Below are positions 22,354 to 29,435 of a stretch of DNA of 64,000 nucleotides, in pieces. This DNA comes from Anaerolineaceae bacterium. Lineage in GTDB: Bacteria > Chloroflexota > Anaerolineae > Anaerolineales > Anaerolineaceae. A model generated the notes under the pieces. The model searched no databases and was not told the origin of the DNA. It saw only the letters and a program-made list of their open reading frames with translations. How positions within the stretch are numbered: position 1 is the first letter of the stretch; each line of letters opens with the position of its first letter. The stretch is from assembly GCA_002702705.1 (NCBI GenBank), contig PABH01000013.1, forward strand, positions 1 to 64,000, in the 5' to 3' direction. The translations under genes were made by a program, and so were the position numbers.

Positions 22354-22382
22354 TTGTATTAATGTTCATGCCTTGCTATAAT
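22354..22382 (+). promoter_or_regulatory. Promoter of the decahaem cytochrome gene
   Basis: TTGTAT at 22354-22359 and TATAAT at 22377-22382, 17-bp spacer, with a leader of about 100 nt before the start codon. The -10 region reads TATAATTTCAC, identical to one at 47933-47943. Confidence 0.65.
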
Positions 22383-22487
22383 TTCACGTAGGGGTATATT
22401 AATGTTTTTTTAATGAAAGGAGTCAACAAGCCGAAAAAAAACAACCATTTTTTACCAGAAAGAAAAATATTTAGAGGAGAGTTTTTT

Positions 22488-24614
22488 ATGACGAAAAAAA
22501 CAATTAAACTATTGACCCTTCTTGCGGTTTTGGTAATGGCTGGAGCACTCTTAGCCGGTTGTGCCCAGACCCCTGAAGCCACAGAAGCGCCCGCACCGGC
22601 CCCCACCCAGGCCTGTCCGGAACAGCAGCCGTGTCCGGAACTCCCGGAACAAGTCCCGGCCCCATTTGAAGAAGCCTGGAAAAATTCACCCCACGCAGAT
22701 GCTTCCGCAGAAGCCTTCCGCCATTGGGATGAAGAAGATCCGGCAGAAGTGCCAGCAAATTGTGCTACCTGCCATAGTTCCGCTGGTTTCTTAGATTTTG
22801 TTGGCGCTGATGGCAGTGAAATGTTTGTCACTGATGCTAACGCCCCGATCGATACCGTTATTACCTGTGAAACCTGCCATAATGACGCAACTGCTTCTTT
22901 AGATACTGTTAACTTCCCATCCGGCGCAGTATTGACCGGTTTGGGCCGTGAAGCAGTTTGTATGACCTGTCACCAGGGACGTGCTTCCAAAGTACAGGTT
23001 GACGAAGCCATCACCACCGCTGGTGTTGAGGATGATGTTGTTTCTGAAGATCTTCGATTCATCAATATCCACTATTATGCCGCAGCGGTCAGCCGTTTTG
23101 GTACGGAAGTTATGGGTGGTTATGAATATGAAGGTATGAGTTACGATACCCTGTTCGAGCATGTACCCGGTGTAACCGCTTGCCAGGATTGTCATAACCC
23201 GCACTCTCTGGAACTGCAAATCGAAACTTGTGCCAACTGTCATGAAGCGGAAACCGCAGAAGACTTACGCGATGTGCGTGAACCTTCCTCCTTCGTGGAC
23301 TATGATGGTGACGGTGATGTTGAAGAAGGCGTGTATTACGAAATCGAAGGGCTGCGAACCATGCTGTATGATGCCATGGTTGCCTACAGCACGGAAGTTG
23401 CCGGTACCCCCATCTTCTTTGATGCTGGATCCTATCCGTATTACTTCGCTGACGCCAATGGAAATGCTGCCATTGATGAAGGTGAAGGAAGTTATGCTTC
23501 CTGGACACCACGCCTCTTAAAAGCTGCCTATAATTTCCAGACAGCAACAAAAGACACCGGTGGTTATGCCCACGGCGGCAAATATATCATCCAATTGTTA
23601 CACGACTCCATCGCCAGCCTCAATGAACAATTGAGCAGCCCGATTGACCTGAGTATGGCTGCCCGTGATGATGCCGGACACTTTGCCAGTTCCACAGAAG
23701 CCTGGCGGCATTGGGATGAAGATGGTGCAGTGCCTGCCAGTTGTGCAAAATGTCACTCTGCTGAAGGTTTACCGCTCTTCATTAAAGAAGGTGTTAATAT
23801 CAGCACCGACCCAACCAGTGGTTTATGGTGTGAATCCTGCCATAACACAGCTGAATGGCCGGCCGTATACCAGGTTGAAACCGTTGAATTCCCAAGTGGT
23901 GCGGAACTCGGTTTTGCAGACAATCTGAACGCAAACCTCTGTCTGAATTGTCACCAGGGCCGCGCTTCCGGCGCTACCGTTGCCAGAGCCGTAAATGGTT
24001 TGGGTGATGACGAAGCCAGCGATTCCTTACGCTTCACAAACGTTCACTACTTTGCTGCTGGTGCCACCTTGTTTGGCGCCGATGCCGCCGGTGTTTATGA
24101 ATATGAAGGCAAAGAATATGCCGGTCAGTTCGTCCACACCAATGGCTTTAGCACTTGTGTTGACTGCCACGATGTTCATGGTTTGGAAGTAAAAGCCGCA
24201 ACTTGTACTGGCTGTCACCAGGTTGATGATCCCCACATGATCCGCTTGAACCTCACCGCTGATTACGATGGTGACGGTGATACCGCTGAAGGTGTGGCTG
24301 GTGAAATCGAGACCATGACGGAAATGGTGTATAACCAGATGGTTGAAGTTACAATCGCTGCCGGAAACCCAATCCTTTACGATGCTCATGCTTACCCGTA
24401 CTTCTTCGCAGATGCAAACGGTAATGGTGCTGTTGATGAAGGTGAAGGAAGTTACTCCGGATGGACTCCTCGCGTACTCAAAGCTGCTTACAACTACCAA
24501 TATGTACAAAAGGACCCAGGAGCTTTCGCACATAACGGCCGCTATATCCTGCAAGTTTTGTTCGATACCCTTGAGGATCTTGGCGCTGATGTAACCGGAA
24601 TGGTTCGCCCATAA
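22488..24614 (+). CDS. Decahaem c-type cytochrome lipoprotein (duplicated pentahaem)
   Basis: A 708-residue exported protein. Signal peptide with lipobox LLAGC near residues 20-24, followed by an Ala/Pro/Glu linker. Ten CXXCH haem motifs in two sets of five: CATCH, CETCH, CMTCH, CQDCH, CANCH (residues 92-252) and CAKCH, CESCH, CLNCH, CVDCH, CTGCH (419-577). The halves align at an offset of about 325 residues. Each half also has an acidic calcium-type loop (DYDGDGDxxEG, near 271 and 592) and DANGNxxxDEGEG (near 322 and 642), followed by WTPRxLKAAYN. The ATG at 22488 follows AGAGGAGA and starts the signal peptide. It should sit outside the membrane on a lipid anchor and carry electrons along a ten-haem chain. 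Monocistronic, with own promoter and terminator. Confidence 0.9.
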   Translation: MTKKTIKLLTLLAVLVMAGALLAGCAQTPEATEAPAPAPTQACPEQQPCPELPEQVPAPFEEAWKNSPHADASAEAFRHWDEEDPAEVPANCATCHSSAGFLDFVGADGSEMFVTDANAPIDTVITCETCHNDATASLDTVNFPSGAVLTGLGREAVCMTCHQGRASKVQVDEAITTAGVEDDVVSEDLRFINIHYYAAAVSRFGTEVMGGYEYEGMSYDTLFEHVPGVTACQDCHNPHSLELQIETCANCHEAETAEDLRDVREPSSFVDYDGDGDVEEGVYYEIEGLRTMLYDAMVAYSTEVAGTPIFFDAGSYPYYFADANGNAAIDEGEGSYASWTPRLLKAAYNFQTATKDTGGYAHGGKYIIQLLHDSIASLNEQLSSPIDLSMAARDDAGHFASSTEAWRHWDEDGAVPASCAKCHSAEGLPLFIKEGVNISTDPTSGLWCESCHNTAEWPAVYQVETVEFPSGAELGFADNLNANLCLNCHQGRASGATVARAVNGLGDDEASDSLRFTNVHYFAAGATLFGADAAGVYEYEGKEYAGQFVHTNGFSTCVDCHDVHGLEVKAATCTGCHQVDDPHMIRLNLTADYDGDGDTAEGVAGEIETMTEMVYNQMVEVTIAAGNPILYDAHAYPYFFADANGNGAVDEGEGSYSGWTPRVLKAAYNYQYVQKDPGAFAHNGRYILQVLFDTLEDLGADVTGMVRP

Positions 24615-24625
24615 TCTGGTAATCG

Positions 24626-24664
24626 AAATACCCGTGACAAAATCTGTCACGGGTATTTTTTTTT
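24626..24664 (+). terminator. Terminator after the decahaem gene
   Basis: A 14-bp stem (24626-24639 with 24645-24658), 5-nt loop, and a run of eight or more T. Confidence 0.92.
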
Positions 24665-24789
24665 CAATAAGATAAGGTGTTCGATTAGTTCCTATCCAAT
24701 GGCCTATATTAAACAGTAAAAAAATCATCTAGACACCATCGATAAAAATCGTAAAATTACCTGGTTATTTAATTATTCACACAAATTTC

Positions 24790-24855
24790 ATGACATTTAT
24801 CGCCATTATTTGTAATTTATTAAAATGTTTTCAGTTGTTTTTAATGTATAATTAA
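24790..24855 (+). promoter_or_regulatory. Promoter region of the NapC-like gene with conserved upstream box
   Basis: ATGACATTTATC (24790-24801) lies 48 bp before TTTTTAATGTATAATTAA (24838-24855), which contains a TATAAT -10 box (24847-24852). The same pair recurs before the nonahaem gene at 46-bp spacing. The -35 is poor, as expected for an activator-dependent promoter; the activator is unknown. The leader to the start codon is about 220 nt. Confidence 0.6.
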
Positions 24856-25077
24856 CAATTAATAATAAAGGTATTTTTAGTCTTTTTTTGTAAAATGATA
24901 TATCGACATCATATTAATTTCACGAGAAGTTTGGTTTAACAATCACAATATCTGATAGATTTATAAAATTTATTTGTTAATTGGAATTATGAAACAAATT
25001 AAAAAAAATTGTGATTTGTTGCCTCAATAAAAAAAACCTTTTTGTTTTACATACACTCATCAGTTTTGGAGGTAAAA

Positions 25078-26772
25078 ATGAAACGTTTTGGACGCTGGAT
25101 AAAGAAAATTTTCCTTCCACCGCAGGATGCAAGTACGGCCGTACGTTTGTTACCTTATGGAATAATTGTTGTTTTAATTATTGGCGTTATTCTTTTTGCT
25201 ACCGGTAGTTGGGAATACACCAACACCACGGAATTTTGCGGAACGGCTTGCCATACCATGCCGCCTCAATATGTTACCCACCAACTTTCCGACCATGCTC
25301 GCGTCACCTGTGAAGATTGTCATTTGGGTCGGGCTGAGCTGGCAACCCAAATTGTGCGTAAAATTCAATATTCATGGCAAACGGGTTCTGCGATGGTCAC
25401 GAACAGTTATGAATACCCCATTATTGCCCGGAATATGCGCCCGGCCAATGAGGTTTGTGAAACCTGCCATTATCCTCAGGTTTTTTCTAGTGATCGTTTA
25501 ATTGAATTAGAACGGTATAAACTGGATGAAAATAATACTTTAAATACCACATACCTCATTATGAAAACAGGTGGCGGTACGGAACGTGAGGGCCTTGGTT
25601 TTGGTATTCACTGGCATATCGAAAATCCGGTTTATTTTTACGCAACCGATGAAGAACGTCAAGAAATCCCTTATGTGGTTGTTGAAAATGATGATGGCAG
25701 TATGACGGAATATATTGATTCCGAATCAGGGTTTAACCCAGCCATGATTTCAACCGAAGATTTAGAGCCGATGGACTGTATCACCTGCCATAATCGAACT
25801 GCGCATGGTATTACCAACCCGGATGATAAGATTGATCAACTGATGTCTCGCGGCGAAATTTCCGCAGATATTCCCTATATCCGCAACCAGGCCAGCCTGG
25901 TGCTACGCAGTAATTATGAAGACCAAGAATCTGCCCGCCTGGGGATTGAAAAACTTCTCGATAATTACGAACGAGATTATCCTTTGGCTTATCAAAAATA
26001 TAAAGCCGAATTGGAAGTTGCTGTAGAAAAATTATGGGCTTATTACGAAAATGCAGTCTTTTTTGATCAGGAAATGAAATGGGACACTCATCCGGATAAT
26101 GCACAGCACCTGGATTCACCCGGTTGTTTCCGCTGCCATGATGGAAAACACCTTACAGAAGAAAACGAAGCCGTTCGTTTAGAATGTAATATTTGCCATT
26201 CAATCCCGGTTGTTTCCGGACCGAATGAATTTGTCACCGATATTGAAGTCAGCAAGGGGATTGAGCCGGAAAACCATAAAAACAGCAATTGGATTGGCTT
26301 GCACCGGGAATATTTTGATGATACCTGCGCGAACTGTCACACCGTTGAAGATCCCGGTGGTGCCAGCAATACATCTTTCTGTTCCAACTCCGGTTGCCAC
26401 GGCCAAAGTTGGGAATATGCCGGCTTTAACGCACCCAAACTGCGTGAGTTATTAGAAGAAATGGTGAAAGTCCAGCCCACGCAGCAGCCGGAAGAACCCC
26501 TCCAGCCTGGTGAAACACCGACCTATGAATCAATCGCCGGATTGTTTGATAAATGTACAGTTTGCCATGGGGATGACAGCTTAAAAGGCGTCAACCTTTC
26601 CAGTTATGAAACTATCATGGCCGGTGCTGATGATGGTCCGTTGGTTGTTCCTGGCGATGCGGAAAACAGTTTAATCGTGATTGCCCAATCTCAAGATCAA
26701 GCGCATTTTGGTCAATTCACTCCGCAGGAATTGGAACGAATCGTTGAATGGATTAATGCAGGCGCTGAGTAA
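25078..26772 (+). CDS. NapC/NirT-like multihaem cytochrome with C-terminal monohaem module
   Basis: A 564-residue membrane-anchored cytochrome. One N-terminal helix (about 24-43) is followed by an outer multihaem domain. Canonical CXXCH sites: CEDCH, CETCH, CITCH, CFRCH, CNICH, CANCH, and CTVCH in the last 90 residues. Two non-canonical sites also occur: CGTACH right after the helix (CX3CH, in the NapC/NrfH-like FCGTxCHTMPP context) and CSNSGCH (CX4CH). The C-terminal domain (about 475-564) is a cytochrome c module like that ending the cytochrome b gene product. NapC/NirT proteins oxidise membrane quinol and pass electrons to outer partners, the likely role here. The ATG at 25078 is chosen because of GGAGG 7 nt upstream and because the anchor starts there. 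Confidence 0.88.
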   Translation: MKRFGRWIKKIFLPPQDASTAVRLLPYGIIVVLIIGVILFATGSWEYTNTTEFCGTACHTMPPQYVTHQLSDHARVTCEDCHLGRAELATQIVRKIQYSWQTGSAMVTNSYEYPIIARNMRPANEVCETCHYPQVFSSDRLIELERYKLDENNTLNTTYLIMKTGGGTEREGLGFGIHWHIENPVYFYATDEERQEIPYVVVENDDGSMTEYIDSESGFNPAMISTEDLEPMDCITCHNRTAHGITNPDDKIDQLMSRGEISADIPYIRNQASLVLRSNYEDQESARLGIEKLLDNYERDYPLAYQKYKAELEVAVEKLWAYYENAVFFDQEMKWDTHPDNAQHLDSPGCFRCHDGKHLTEENEAVRLECNICHSIPVVSGPNEFVTDIEVSKGIEPENHKNSNWIGLHREYFDDTCANCHTVEDPGGASNTSFCSNSGCHGQSWEYAGFNAPKLRELLEEMVKVQPTQQPEEPLQPGETPTYESIAGLFDKCTVCHGDDSLKGVNLSSYETIMAGADDGPLVVPGDAENSLIVIAQSQDQAHFGQFTPQELERIVEWINAGAE

Positions 26773-26797
26773 TTTAATCTGACTGTAAAATAAAGTT

Positions 26798-26841
26798 AAT
26801 GGATAAACCATATATTGTGTTTTGGTTTATCCATTTTTTTA
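26798..26841 (+). terminator. Terminator after the NapC-like gene
   Basis: A 13-bp perfect stem (26798-26810 with 26823-26835), 12-nt loop, and a T-run. Confidence 0.88.
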
Positions 26842-26913
26842 TTAAGATAAGTAACACTTATACACCTTGATAAGTTCAAACTTCGTTAATTTGGTCATAT
26901 TTACACAAAAACT

Positions 26914-26977
26914 ATGACATTCATCATGAAACTAACAAAAGTGAAAAAAAACACAAGTCTTTTTAATGTATAATTAA
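26914..26977 (+). promoter_or_regulatory. Promoter region of the nonahaem gene with the same conserved upstream box
   Basis: ATGACATTCATC (26914-26925) and TTTTTAATGTATAATTAA (26960-26977; TATAAT at 26969-26974), spaced 46 bp. A CACAAA string lies a few bases before the first box in both copies. Confidence 0.6.
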
Positions 26978-27058
26978 TAATTGAATTAAAGAGATTTCCG
27001 GTCAGTTTTCACAACATTGTATTTTCTGATTTTTAAAAACATTTAAGGAGAATTATTT

Positions 27059-28222
27059 ATGAAGGAAAACAAATTCCTTAACGTTAGGTTTTTGCCACTT
27101 CTCCTGCTGGTCATGGTCGTTTTGATAGCAGCCAGTTTTTGGTTTGTTTCACCAGTAGCTGCACAAGACGGCACAGGTGATGAACCATCCAATGCGGCTT
27201 GTTTATCCTGCCATGCTGAAGCATCCACTCCGATGGAACTACCAAATGGTGAATTGTTATCGATCCAAATTAGCGTTGATAATTTTGGTAAATCCGTACA
27301 CGGTCGTAATGAGGTGTCTTGTGTAACCTGTCATGTTGATATCAGTGGTTTCCCTCATCCCGAAAATGATGCTGCAACGATTCATGAATACAAAGTTGGT
27401 TATTTAGATACCTGTGCAGAATGCCATGAAGAACAGGCTTCCCAAACCCAAGACAGTATTCATGGTATGCTGTTGGCTGAGGGCAATACCAATGCACCAA
27501 CCTGTATGGACTGTCATAACCCGCACACCCAGCCATTTGTTGATGAAGTCAGTAAAGCGACATTTGCCCAGGTTTGTGCCCAATGCCATAATGGTATTTA
27601 TGAAGAGTACAGTAATACGGTCCATGGCTCAGCCCTAATCAACGAGGGGAATCAAGATGTTCCTGGCTGTGTGGATTGTCATGGCGTGCATTCAATTGCT
27701 GATCCCACAACGGCAGAGTTCCGTAACAGTTCCATTTATATGTGTGCGAACTGTCATACTGATGAAAGTATCATGGGAAAATATGGTATTTCCACTGATG
27801 TGTTAGATACCTATGTTGCTGATTTTCATGGCACAACCGTAACCATCTTTGAAGAGACAGAACCCGGTCAGCTTACCAATAAGGCTGTTTGTTACGATTG
27901 TCATGGTATTCATGATATTCTAAGTGTTAATGACCCCAACAAGGGCCTGGCTGTGAAAGAAAATATGCTTGCAGCCTGCCAAAAATGTCATCCGGATGCG
28001 ACCACGAATTTCCCCGATTCATGGCTAAGTCACTATCGACCTGACCGAGAGAAATTCCCGCTGGTTTATTATGTCGATCTGTTTTACAAAATATTAATTC
28101 CAACCGTATTAGGCGGTATGGCAATCTTTGTCCTGAGTGATGTCTATTTCCGACTTCGGAAACGCTTTCAGAAACCTGCCGCCGAGTCGGTCAGTGAATC
28201 CAAAGACGTGGAAAAGGAGTAA
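27059..28222 (+). CDS. Nonahaem c-type cytochrome with C-terminal membrane anchor
   Basis: A 387-residue exported protein. Signal peptide at about 1-38 (ending SPVAAQDG). Nine CXXCH sites: CLSCH, CVTCH, CAECH, CMDCH, CAQCH, CVDCH, CANCH, CYDCH, CQKCH. Many are followed by N/D-P-H or GxH segments (CMDCHNPHTQ, CVDCHGVHS, CYDCHGIHD), as in cytochrome c3/c7-like and NrfH-linked multihaem chains, giving His ligands. One membrane helix near residues 339-360 precedes a short basic cytosolic tail, so the haem domain is held at the outer surface. AAGGAG lies 9 nt before the ATG. The cytochrome b-type gene begins 1 bp after its stop codon, indicating translational coupling and a shared complex. Confidence 0.9.
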   Translation: MKENKFLNVRFLPLLLLVMVVLIAASFWFVSPVAAQDGTGDEPSNAACLSCHAEASTPMELPNGELLSIQISVDNFGKSVHGRNEVSCVTCHVDISGFPHPENDAATIHEYKVGYLDTCAECHEEQASQTQDSIHGMLLAEGNTNAPTCMDCHNPHTQPFVDEVSKATFAQVCAQCHNGIYEEYSNTVHGSALINEGNQDVPGCVDCHGVHSIADPTTAEFRNSSIYMCANCHTDESIMGKYGISTDVLDTYVADFHGTTVTIFEETEPGQLTNKAVCYDCHGIHDILSVNDPNKGLAVKENMLAACQKCHPDATTNFPDSWLSHYRPDREKFPLVYYVDLFYKILIPTVLGGMAIFVLSDVYFRLRKRFQKPAAESVSESKDVEKE

Positions 28223-28223
28223 G

Positions 28224-29384
28224 ATGATGAGTAAAGAAACTAAAACCTATCTGCGTTTTGATGTTGCCCGCCGGATTGAGCATCTTTTGATGATCTTGTC
28301 ATTTACAACCCTTGGCTTGACCGGATTGATTCAAAAATTTGCATTAAATGATATTTCCCTGTGGTTGGTAAAAGTTTTGGGTGGTATCGAAACAGTCCGT
28401 ATTATCCATCGTGTTGCGGCAACCGTGTTTATTCTGGAGGGAATCTATCATTTGATTCTCTTGGGTTATATTCTTTATGTTCAACGCAAACAAGCCACCA
28501 TGATGCCCGGTATTAAAGATGCTACCGATGCCCTGCAAGTATTTTTGCACAATCTTGGCCTGGGTAAAAAATATCCAAAAATGCCGCGCTATAACTTCAC
28601 CGAAAAAGCCGAATACCTGGCGATGGTATGGGGTTTTGTGTTGATGGGATTAACCGGCTTTATGTTGTGGAATCCCATTCTGACAGCAAAACTGCTGCCT
28701 GGTGAGTTTATCCCGGCTGCGAAAGCAGCGCATGGCGCAGAAGCCGTCCTGGCGGTTTTGGCGATCATTCTCTGGCATTTTTACAATGTGCATATCAAAC
28801 ATTGGAACTGGTCAATGATCAAAGGACACCTTACCAGACACGAGATGGAAGAAGAACATGGTCAGGAACTGGAACAAATTGAATCCGGTGAAGTTTATGT
28901 ACCACCCGCACCATCTGTGTACAAAAAACGCATGGCCATTTTTGCCCCCCTGTCAGCGGTTTTGTCCATTGCATTAATTGCTGGTTTGATCTTTTTTATT
29001 ACCTTTGAAGATTCGGCAATTACCACGGTGCCGCCAGTATATGCTGATGTGGATGTATTTGTGCCGCAAACCCCAACGCCGATGCCAACGCAAGTCCCAA
29101 CCCCGACCCCTGATCCGGCTATGGCAAACACATGGGATGGTGGTATTAATTCTATTTTTGAACAACAATGTGGTTTGTGCCATGGGAATAATGGCGGTTT
29201 GTCAATTGAGACCTATTCGGGTGTCATCCAGGGTGGTGACAGCGGACCCATTATTATCCCCGGTTCACCGGATGCCAGTTCCGTGTTAACAATTGCTGAT
29301 CCGGCAAATAGCCATCCTGGTCAATTCACGGAAGATCAGCTTGAAAAAATCCGTGTATGGATTTCAAATGGTGCACCGAAATAA
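28224..29384 (+). CDS. Cytochrome b-type membrane subunit fused to a monohaem cytochrome c
   Basis: A 386-residue protein. Four core helices resemble formate dehydrogenase gamma/cytochrome b561-type dihaem subunits, with His at RRIEHLLM, IIHRVAATVF, GIYHLILL, AAHGAEA and WHFYNVHIKHW as haem ligand candidates; a fifth helix (about 235-257) leads to a Pro/Thr linker and a C-terminal module with one CGLCH site. That module matches the end of the NapC-like protein: (C)xxCHG...SxETYxxxxxGxDxGPxxxPGxxxxSxxxIA...GQFTxxxLExIxxWIxxGA. Role: quinol oxidation at the membrane and transfer to the fused haem and to the nonahaem partner encoded just upstream. Start at 28224 (or 28227) behind AAAGGAGT; a longer frame overlaps the upstream gene and lacks a site. 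Confidence 0.88.
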   Translation: MMSKETKTYLRFDVARRIEHLLMILSFTTLGLTGLIQKFALNDISLWLVKVLGGIETVRIIHRVAATVFILEGIYHLILLGYILYVQRKQATMMPGIKDATDALQVFLHNLGLGKKYPKMPRYNFTEKAEYLAMVWGFVLMGLTGFMLWNPILTAKLLPGEFIPAAKAAHGAEAVLAVLAIILWHFYNVHIKHWNWSMIKGHLTRHEMEEEHGQELEQIESGEVYVPPAPSVYKKRMAIFAPLSAVLSIALIAGLIFFITFEDSAITTVPPVYADVDVFVPQTPTPMPTQVPTPTPDPAMANTWDGGINSIFEQQCGLCHGNNGGLSIETYSGVIQGGDSGPIIIPGSPDASSVLTIADPANSHPGQFTEDQLEKIRVWISNGAPK

Positions 29385-29401
29385 GAAATAATTTTCCTAA
29401 C

Positions 29402-29435
29402 AAAACACCGCTTTTCGAGGCGGTGTTTTTTGTTT
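29402..29435 (+). terminator. Terminator of the nonahaem/cytochrome b operon
   Basis: Stem AAAACACCGC/GCGGTGTTTT (29402-29411 with 29420-29429), loop 8 nt, T-run. Confidence 0.9.

Follow-up and report, generated by a model that had tools for sequence, protein, structure and literature searches.

The window analysed here, a stretch of 64,000 nucleotides from contig PABH01000013.1 of a bacterium of the Anaerolineaceae, carries a haem c cluster of four consecutive genes on the + strand (g1 to g4) that lies between a phosphoesterase gene and MutS2. We judge it reasonably probable that this cluster encodes a respiratory electron-export chain, in which two alternative menaquinol oxidases would feed one common wire and so form a conduit from quinol to the cell surface. 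The haem sites, candidate ligands, domains, and conserved linkage of these genes are read directly from the sequences. The four genes are listed below, each beginning at the best ATG start codon read from the sequence.

g1, 22488..24614, + strand: decahaem c lipoprotein, 708 amino acids, signal peptide with lipobox LAGC (C25), two pentahaem repeats
g2, 25078..26772, + strand: ImcH/NrfH-like membrane cytochrome, 564 amino acids, with CX3CH, seven CX2CH, and CX4CH
g3, 27059..28222, + strand: nonahaem c protein, 387 amino acids, signal peptide and C-terminal transmembrane helix
g4, 28224..29384, + strand: FdnI-like cytochrome b, 386 amino acids, fifth helix and C-terminal tethered monohaem c domain

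Haem sites and domains of the four proteins

The earlier note on this DNA had described four cytochrome genes side by side with nothing between them, and the present gene calls agree: all four open reading frames (ORFs) are on the + strand, and no further likely gene lies inside the cluster. The start given in that note, 22354, is upstream of any likely start. The proteins carry 10, 7, 9, and 1 CXXCH motifs, respectively, as its text had stated, and the canonical total is 27 rather than the 26 of its title. Two non-canonical sites, CX3CH (C54–H59) and CX4CH (C435–H441), are both located in g2 and bring the predicted haem c total to about 29, with all sites conserved. When all stop-to-stop frames of at least 60 amino acids in the window were scanned, CXXCH was restricted to g1 to g4. 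Because no other such frame carries the motif, chance is not a concern for the haem motifs of the cluster.

The g1 protein is composed of two similar halves, which are identical at 148 of 296 positions (50%) and align with a score of 720, compared with a maximum of 66 in 200 shuffles. Each repeat contains five CXXCH motifs and a conserved DYDGDGD motif that, by its appearance, would bind calcium. Besides the ten CXXCH histidines, distal histidines are found at positions 69, 195, 225, 239, and 362 in one series and at 398, 520, 550, 564, and 682 in another. All twenty are present in 79 of 79 or 80 of 80 sequences of an alignment that comprises 79 fetched proteins and the window's own. Ten haems with ten distal histidines suggest a six-coordinate wire, and the full distal histidine sets of g1 and g3 fit wires better than they fit enzymes resembling nitrite reductase. 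A lipobox-like match is present in 55 of the 80 sequences; for the other 25, start choice, truncation, and real absence are not separated. The protein passes the cut-offs of general c3/c7 Pfam models only, and no NCBIfam model passes. Comparison of its profile with the PDB related no chain at E below 0.06, meaning that g1 has no solved relative, and a PHROGs search with g1 returned nothing.

The description of g2 as NapC/NirT-like holds at the level of the superfamily (Pfam PF03264, 36.7 bits with a cut-off of 24.1), but it can be narrowed to NrfH and ImcH. The NrfH model yields 50.8 bits and the NapC/NirT model 24.3, each below its own curated cut-off, and the N-terminus of g2 matches NrfH 2j7a_C with E 2.6e-11 in a profile comparison with solved structures. 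There is a single N-terminal helix-like segment (residues 24–42), and the CX3CH is adjacent to it. This motif had been listed as a variant site; it is indeed non-canonical, but it is also a hallmark of ImcH. Both CX3CH and CX4CH occur unchanged in all 14 g2 proteins of an alignment, and their haem histidines are present in 35 of 35 sequences, the window's included. The extended motif CX3CHxM is found in 32 of these 35. The family also includes relatives with 17 and 22 CXXCH (L098:12220-14313 and L116:12300-16706), which represent large haem expansions.

In g3, nine CXXCH and nine distal histidines are conserved in 41 or 42 of 42 sequences, among them that of the window, and helix-like segments span residues 12–30 and 341–359. 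Its profile matches 6r2q_A (E 1.3e-13), which we take to be MtrA of the MtrABC complex 6r2q although the label of the record differs, followed by an unnamed cytochrome c (28pb), OcwA, hydroxylamine oxidoreductase, and NrfA. Against the DmsE model TIGR03508, g3 scores 59.1 bits, far under the cut-off of 192.2.

The b-type cytochrome subunit reported earlier is borne out by g4, which is homologous to FdnI (1kqf_C) over residues 3–228 (E 1.8e-13) and belongs with g3 as a CbcL-like pair. Histidines 20, 62, and 170 of g4 are in register with the residues that we take to be the haem ligands of FdnI. These three and His185 are present in 31 of 31 sequences, including that of the window, a set that required coverage over 0.75 and so excludes short proteins lacking the C-terminal arm. 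From the four invariant histidines, g4 is predicted probably to hold two b haems. The fifth of its five helix-like segments leads into a proline-rich linker and a monohaem domain with CXXCH at residue 316, and the topology would place this domain outside.

The pair varies among relatives. Nine g3 haems are combined with at least one CXXCH in g4 at 28 of the 40 loci that have both genes, whereas 9 loci have 14–15 g3 haems and no g4 CXXCH, and 3 have 8–9 g3 haems and no g4 CXXCH (the 8-haem protein begins at a contig edge). The combination of a 14-haem g3 with an arm-less g4 may reflect one event, since most of the 14-haem rows group together in the g1 tree described below. Some g4 relatives are wholly without the monohaem arm (L049:8514-9362 and L052:5796-6854) and represent natural deletions.

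A shared C-terminal haem domain had also been proposed, and it is found in g2 (about residues 466–563) and g4, with 33 of 95 aligned residues identical and a score of 166, compared with a maximum of 58 in 200 shuffles. This arm matches FoxE (5mab_A) with E 1.8e-8 for the g2 family and 1.5e-4 for the g4 family. FoxE is an Fe(II) oxidase. Where FoxE has the methionine of RMPPG, presumably a haem ligand, the arms have a histidine that is kept in 34 of 34 g2 and 29 of 29 g4 sequences reaching this position. The arm is thus predicted to be a tethered domain of low potential whose haem has His/His ligation.

Distribution, linkage, and genomic setting

The g3 and g4 genes are both present and adjacent in 25 of 61 genomes, the window's own included. 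Full-length g1 is found in 21 of these 25, g2 in 17, and all four genes in 13. In five genomes (G008, G010, G015, G025, and G027), g1-g3-g4 occur on a single contig without g2. Comparison of gene order across genomes, suggested earlier as a check, therefore reveals a linkage that is real but looser than four fixed genes. Within the genus, the order g1-g2-g3-g4 is found in 8 of 8 members; one of these g1 genes is truncated at the end of its contig.

Relatives of g1 were sought by scanning one genome per species, and the best 80 of 311 matches were fetched. At 35 of these loci there is at least 7 kb on each side of g1; the count leaves out the other 45, where a flank is under 7 kb or g1 is incomplete. 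A partner is present at 27 of the 35 (g2, g3, and g4 at 12, g3-g4 at 10, and g2 at 5). Of 301 genomes sampled evenly across the phylum, 20 have a g1 match at E ≤ 1e-60, a threshold that misses shorter relatives; 17 of the proteins are full-length, and all 20 genomes belong to the class of the window. A quick g1 tree built from the window and 79 of the 80 loci, with a root that is not known, contains by title 70 rows from Chloroflexota, 5 from Actinomycetota, 2 from Trueperaceae (Deinococcota), and 3 without a group. The Actinomycetota and Trueperaceae rows fall among those of Chloroflexota. Transfer of g1 between phyla is possible, with the reservation that bins may be contaminated and the tree is unrooted. 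Among cultured species, Longilinea arvoryzae has g1 with g2-g3-g4 located 3.6 kb away, and Levilinea saccharolytica and Thermanaerothrix daxensis have g1-g3-g4 and no g2.

Recurrent neighbours were counted as similarity groups within 6 kb of cluster genes at the 80 g1 loci. Genes for haem c maturation are found there (CcmF-like at 13 loci, CcmE-like at 9, and CcmH-like at 7), together with response regulators (12), histidine kinases (9), NrfD-like proteins (7), and 4Fe-4S proteins (7). The names of five groups (CcmF, CcmE, CcmH, kinase, and regulator) come from a Pfam match of one representative each, and those of the NrfD/NrfC-like groups were given by eye. At 9 of the 80 loci (L066:14839-15831 and 8 others) there is what is probably an exported membrane protein, with an ‘LWPEYD’ region and a C-terminal zinc ribbon.

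Octahaem proteins related to OcwA, with a Gly-Pro-rich linker, are encoded at 10 of the 80 g1 loci in 12 copies, 10 of which have a lipobox-like motif. The count comprises only the 12 long proteins (399–493 amino acids), as the original 15 octahaem loci mixed two kinds. The protein of L104, which is the same as that of L047, matches OcwA 6i5b with E 2e-13, and the other 11 were rated OcwA-like by their 41–59% identity to the L104 copy. The accessible text on OcwA confirms the code 6i5b and describes the protein as the cell-surface terminal reductase of Thermincola (PMC7911101). The statement that no terminal reductase is encoded nearby is true at the window, but at these loci there is an OcwA relative in the neighbourhood, which would be the best pointer to an extracellular acceptor.

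Within the cluster, the intergenic gaps measure 463 bp (g1-g2), 286 bp (g2-g3), and 1 bp (g3-g4). Three further features lie between or after the genes.

24625..24659, + strand: terminator-like hairpin after g1, 15-pair stem with T tail, consensus match only
24715..24928, + strand: AT-rich segment ahead of g2 that can be aligned with 26850-27052 ahead of g3
29402..29429, + strand: terminator-like hairpin after g4, 12-pair stem with T tail, consensus match only

The scan for terminator-like hairpins found 10, compared with 7.7 in shuffles, and only stem length (15 and 12 pairs) distinguishes the top two; none was called after g2. The four genes probably do not form one simple operon, because the two strongest hairpins sit after g1 and after g4. 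The leaders of g2 and g3 can be aligned over ∼210 bp with a score of 95, which was reached by 0 of 200 first-order random pairs (maximum 94). Six leader pairs were compared, and this likeness, which suggests co-regulation or a duplicated promoter, is statistically marginal. A promoter common to all four genes is unsupported, as the g1 leader is unlike the others (p 0.2 and 0.37).

The genome also holds further multihaem systems, so that the cluster is just one of several possible exits. A second electron exit may be encoded in L136:4746-11199 (G000:C51), where genes for c-type proteins of 6, 12, and 24 haems follow cytochrome b and Rieske genes. In L135:5904-9106 (G000:C12), two multihaem proteins have 20 and 15 CXXCH; short, near-identical repeats make up the larger one, and a gene close by resembles FAD/NAD oxidoreductases by eye. 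An octahaem g3 paralogue occurs with 4Fe-4S and NrfD genes and response-regulator-like flanks in L133:9143-12256 (G000:C5), where a g3-type wire is coupled with a different quinol module. L137 of the same genome contains a set judged by eye to be alternative-complex-III-like. In L138:7972-11077 (G000:C21), a pentahaem protein that is NrfH-like by eye has as its neighbour a flavoprotein that resembles old yellow enzyme and begins with a twin-arginine-like sequence; the two are possibly a quinol-linked extracytoplasmic ene-reductase.

Direction and destination of the electrons

What we infer for the export chain is the oxidation of quinol, the direction of the electrons, the order of hand-over, and the acceptor. 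At one gate, g4 would oxidise quinol via its two membrane b haems and pass electrons to the nonahaem chain of g3 on the outer face of the membrane, as a two-gene version of the CbcL/CbcBA type. At the other gate, g2 would oxidise quinol as an ImcH-type single-helix cytochrome and conduct the electrons along its own haems. The flexibly tethered monohaem arm of each oxidase would then pass electrons to g1, which as a decahaem lipoprotein would be embedded in the wall and would deliver them to an acceptor outside. Humics, a metal oxide, or a partner cell could serve as this acceptor, and in some relatives an OcwA-like terminal reductase could do so. If the properties of the Geobacter proteins carry over, the CbcL-like gate would cost membrane potential and the ImcH-like gate would not. 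In the accessible part of a Geobacter study, ImcH is assigned to potentials above -0.1 V and CbcL to low potentials (PMC12307469). An optional g2 would accordingly mark species that meet higher-potential acceptors. The host envelope is probably single-membrane, and Thermanaerothrix daxensis is reported to show no sign of an outer membrane (PMC4653793). The membrane-to-outside conduit envisaged in the earlier note gains support from the conservation of the genes as a group and from the lack of a reductase in the cluster and of NrfA in the genome; a lack of joint conservation, which the note had named as a refutation, was not observed.

Several observations weigh against the export chain. Its proposed wire is not obligatory: G038, G053, and G056 have g2-g3-g4 but no g1 match, G046 has g1 pieces only, and 8 of the 35 well-flanked g1 loci are without any of g2 to g4. 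In G026, g1-g2 and g3-g4 are on different contigs, and many genomes are fragmented. No OcwA relative was matched in the window's own genome, though an empty result in this search carries little weight. His185 of g4 is one residue off the fourth ligand of FdnI. The structure models of g1 and g3 are weak, with mean predicted local distance difference test (pLDDT) values of 64.6 and 72.7, and were not used for function; the top PDB fold match of g1 is NrfA, which is non-significant (E 2.8), and that of g3 is hydroxylamine oxidoreductase (E 4e-3, template modelling score 0.32). NrfA is present in 11 of the 25 g3-g4 genomes and in 6 of 36 others (p 0.024, uncorrected for descent), and when two fragments are included the former count rises to 13 of 25 (p 0.005). 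An abstract describes a multilayered envelope for Litorilinea aerophila, a bin of which carries g1, so the single membrane may fail for some carriers. Ardenticatena maritima, a Chloroflexota isolate that produces anodic and cathodic current, has at most 7 haem sites per protein according to the accessible part of its description (PMC5808234), and would thus be without g1 and g3 as such and use a different route.

The enrichment of NrfA is one of the reasons to consider that electrons from quinol go not outside but to a soluble reductase elsewhere (NrfA, a nitric or nitrous oxide reductase, a flavoprotein, or an oxidase), with g1 as a relay. The NrfH-like N-terminus of g2 agrees with this alternative, as does Thermanaerothrix daxensis, which has NrfA and NirS (PMC4653793) alongside g1-g3-g4. 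Since NrfA is commoner with g3-g4, some hosts may use the cluster for nitrite. However, 14 of the 25 g3-g4 genomes, the window's own among them, lack full-length NrfA (two of the 14 have a fragment), and the only reductase-like recurrent neighbour is the OcwA-like protein, other reductases not having been searched genome-wide. The own genome, which is 96.8% complete, yields no full-length match to PF02335, only g3 at 20.1 bits. Nitrite reduction by NrfA is rejected as a general role on this ground, although its association with g3-g4 remains, and delivery to a soluble reductase seems to us unlikely overall.

It is also conceivable, if quite improbable, that the chain runs inward and reduces quinone with electrons that g1 accepts from a partner cell, a cathode, or Fe(II). 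Proteins of the CbcL/MtrH/MtoC type have been implicated in both directions, for CbcBA of syntrophic sulfate reducers a backward flow has been predicted, and the C-terminal arms resemble FoxE. This last likeness, however, is that of one small common domain, in which the Met of FoxE is replaced by His in the cluster. Finally, the fold matches named above could be read as signs that g1 is itself an enzyme for a soluble substrate such as nitrite, hydroxylamine, or tetrathionate: those of g1 lead with NrfA, and g3 is weakly like hydroxylamine oxidoreductase. We find this scarcely credible, as g1 has ten conserved distal histidines, one for each of its ten haems, so that no iron would have a free site, and CXXCK is absent from all four proteins.

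Relation to known systems

Each gate of the proposed export chain has counterparts among described quinol oxidases, namely ImcH and CbcL, with which Geobacter oxidises menaquinol in extracellular respiration. ImcH proteins have an atypical CX3CH beside their membrane part and 5–9 CX2CH, according to the accessible text of a survey (PMC6295460), and by published description g2 is like ImcH of Geobacter sulfurreducens in having a CX3CH next to the membrane helix and seven CX2CH. Unlike ImcH, which has three N-terminal helices, g2 has one, and it adds the CX4CH and the C-terminal monohaem domain. The same source describes the ImcH homologues of Anaerolinea thermophila and Intrasporangium calvum as having one helix only. 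A metagenome-assembled genome named Anaerolinea thermophila (L071) has g2 beside g1. Because this bin has g2 and the survey counts an ImcH homologue for that species, the ImcH-like identity of the g2 protein type is probably already in print.

CbcL is described, in the accessible text, as a di-haem b domain with nine bis-His c haems (PMC9129911). Compared by published description, CbcL of Geobacter sulfurreducens has the same inventory as g3 plus g4, and MtoC/MtrH and CbcBA are grouped with it among the closest systems. However, CbcL is one polypeptide with six helices, whereas here there are two ORFs, and g4 has five segments and the monohaem arm. The pair resembles a quinol oxidase of the CbcL/CbcBA type in its predicted function, yet it is not classed as CbcL. 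Table 1 of that survey of quinol oxidases, from 2018, as far as its text is accessible, has no CbcL homologue in Chloroflexi (PMC6295460), which the splitting and divergence of the pair could explain. Relative to FdnI, the cytochrome b556 of formate dehydrogenase-N, the fifth helix and the c domain are extra in g4, which scores below NCBIfam cut-offs, and the cluster is without formate dehydrogenase genes. The likeness of g3 to decahaem cytochromes of the MtrA/DmsE family is one of profile, and g3 differs in its nine haems and membrane anchor. No beta-barrel gene for a porin is present within the cluster, which holds nothing but g1 to g4; the genome beyond the cluster was not searched for one.

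Searches limited to open-licence PMC found no paper that describes the four-gene set, as judged from titles, the openings of abstracts, and selected passages. For Anaerolinea thermophila UNI-1 and five Anaerolineae bins, a 2016 study reported that c-type cytochromes of the MtrC/OmcA kind were lacking (PMC4877987), a negative that does not bear on the families of g1 to g4. A decahaem and a 24-haem cytochrome were noted in a Chloroflexi bin in 2013 (PMC3971608), and Anaerolineales on the Rifle anode are rich in multihaem proteins (PMC7399161); that bin or those Anaerolineales may hold these genes. The neighbours of the g2 type (g1, g3, and g4) are undescribed as far as the literature covered extends. 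We put forward as a tentative possibility that the genes represent an undescribed export system, widely shared in Chloroflexota and present in some Actinomycetota, that would combine both Geobacter-type gates with His/His swinging arms docking on a wall-spanning g1.

Digesters, sediments, and sludge harbour abundant Anaerolineae, which are usually called fermenters. Longilinea arvoryzae and Levilinea saccharolytica were first described as strict fermenters. The same is true of Thermanaerothrix daxensis (PMC4653793). If the proposal is correct, many supposed fermenters of this class would gain an extracellular respiration that is tunable to the potential of the acceptor. Since the cluster occurs in cultured species, extracellular respiration is directly testable there.

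In Thermincola, the chain ImdcA-PdcA-CwcA-OcwA is described in the accessible text as a monoderm route that comprises a membrane multihaem protein, a periplasmic decahaem protein, and a surface reductase (PMC7911101). The cluster is alike in offering a monoderm route and in the OcwA relative that is found near g1 or its partners at 10 of the 80 loci. It is unlike the Thermincola chain in its cytochrome b pair, for which the accessible description of Thermincola gives no counterpart, and in g1, which is without a solved relative. If the export chain operates as proposed, it would stand beside that of Thermincola as a second way for cytochromes to carry electrons out of a cell with a single membrane.

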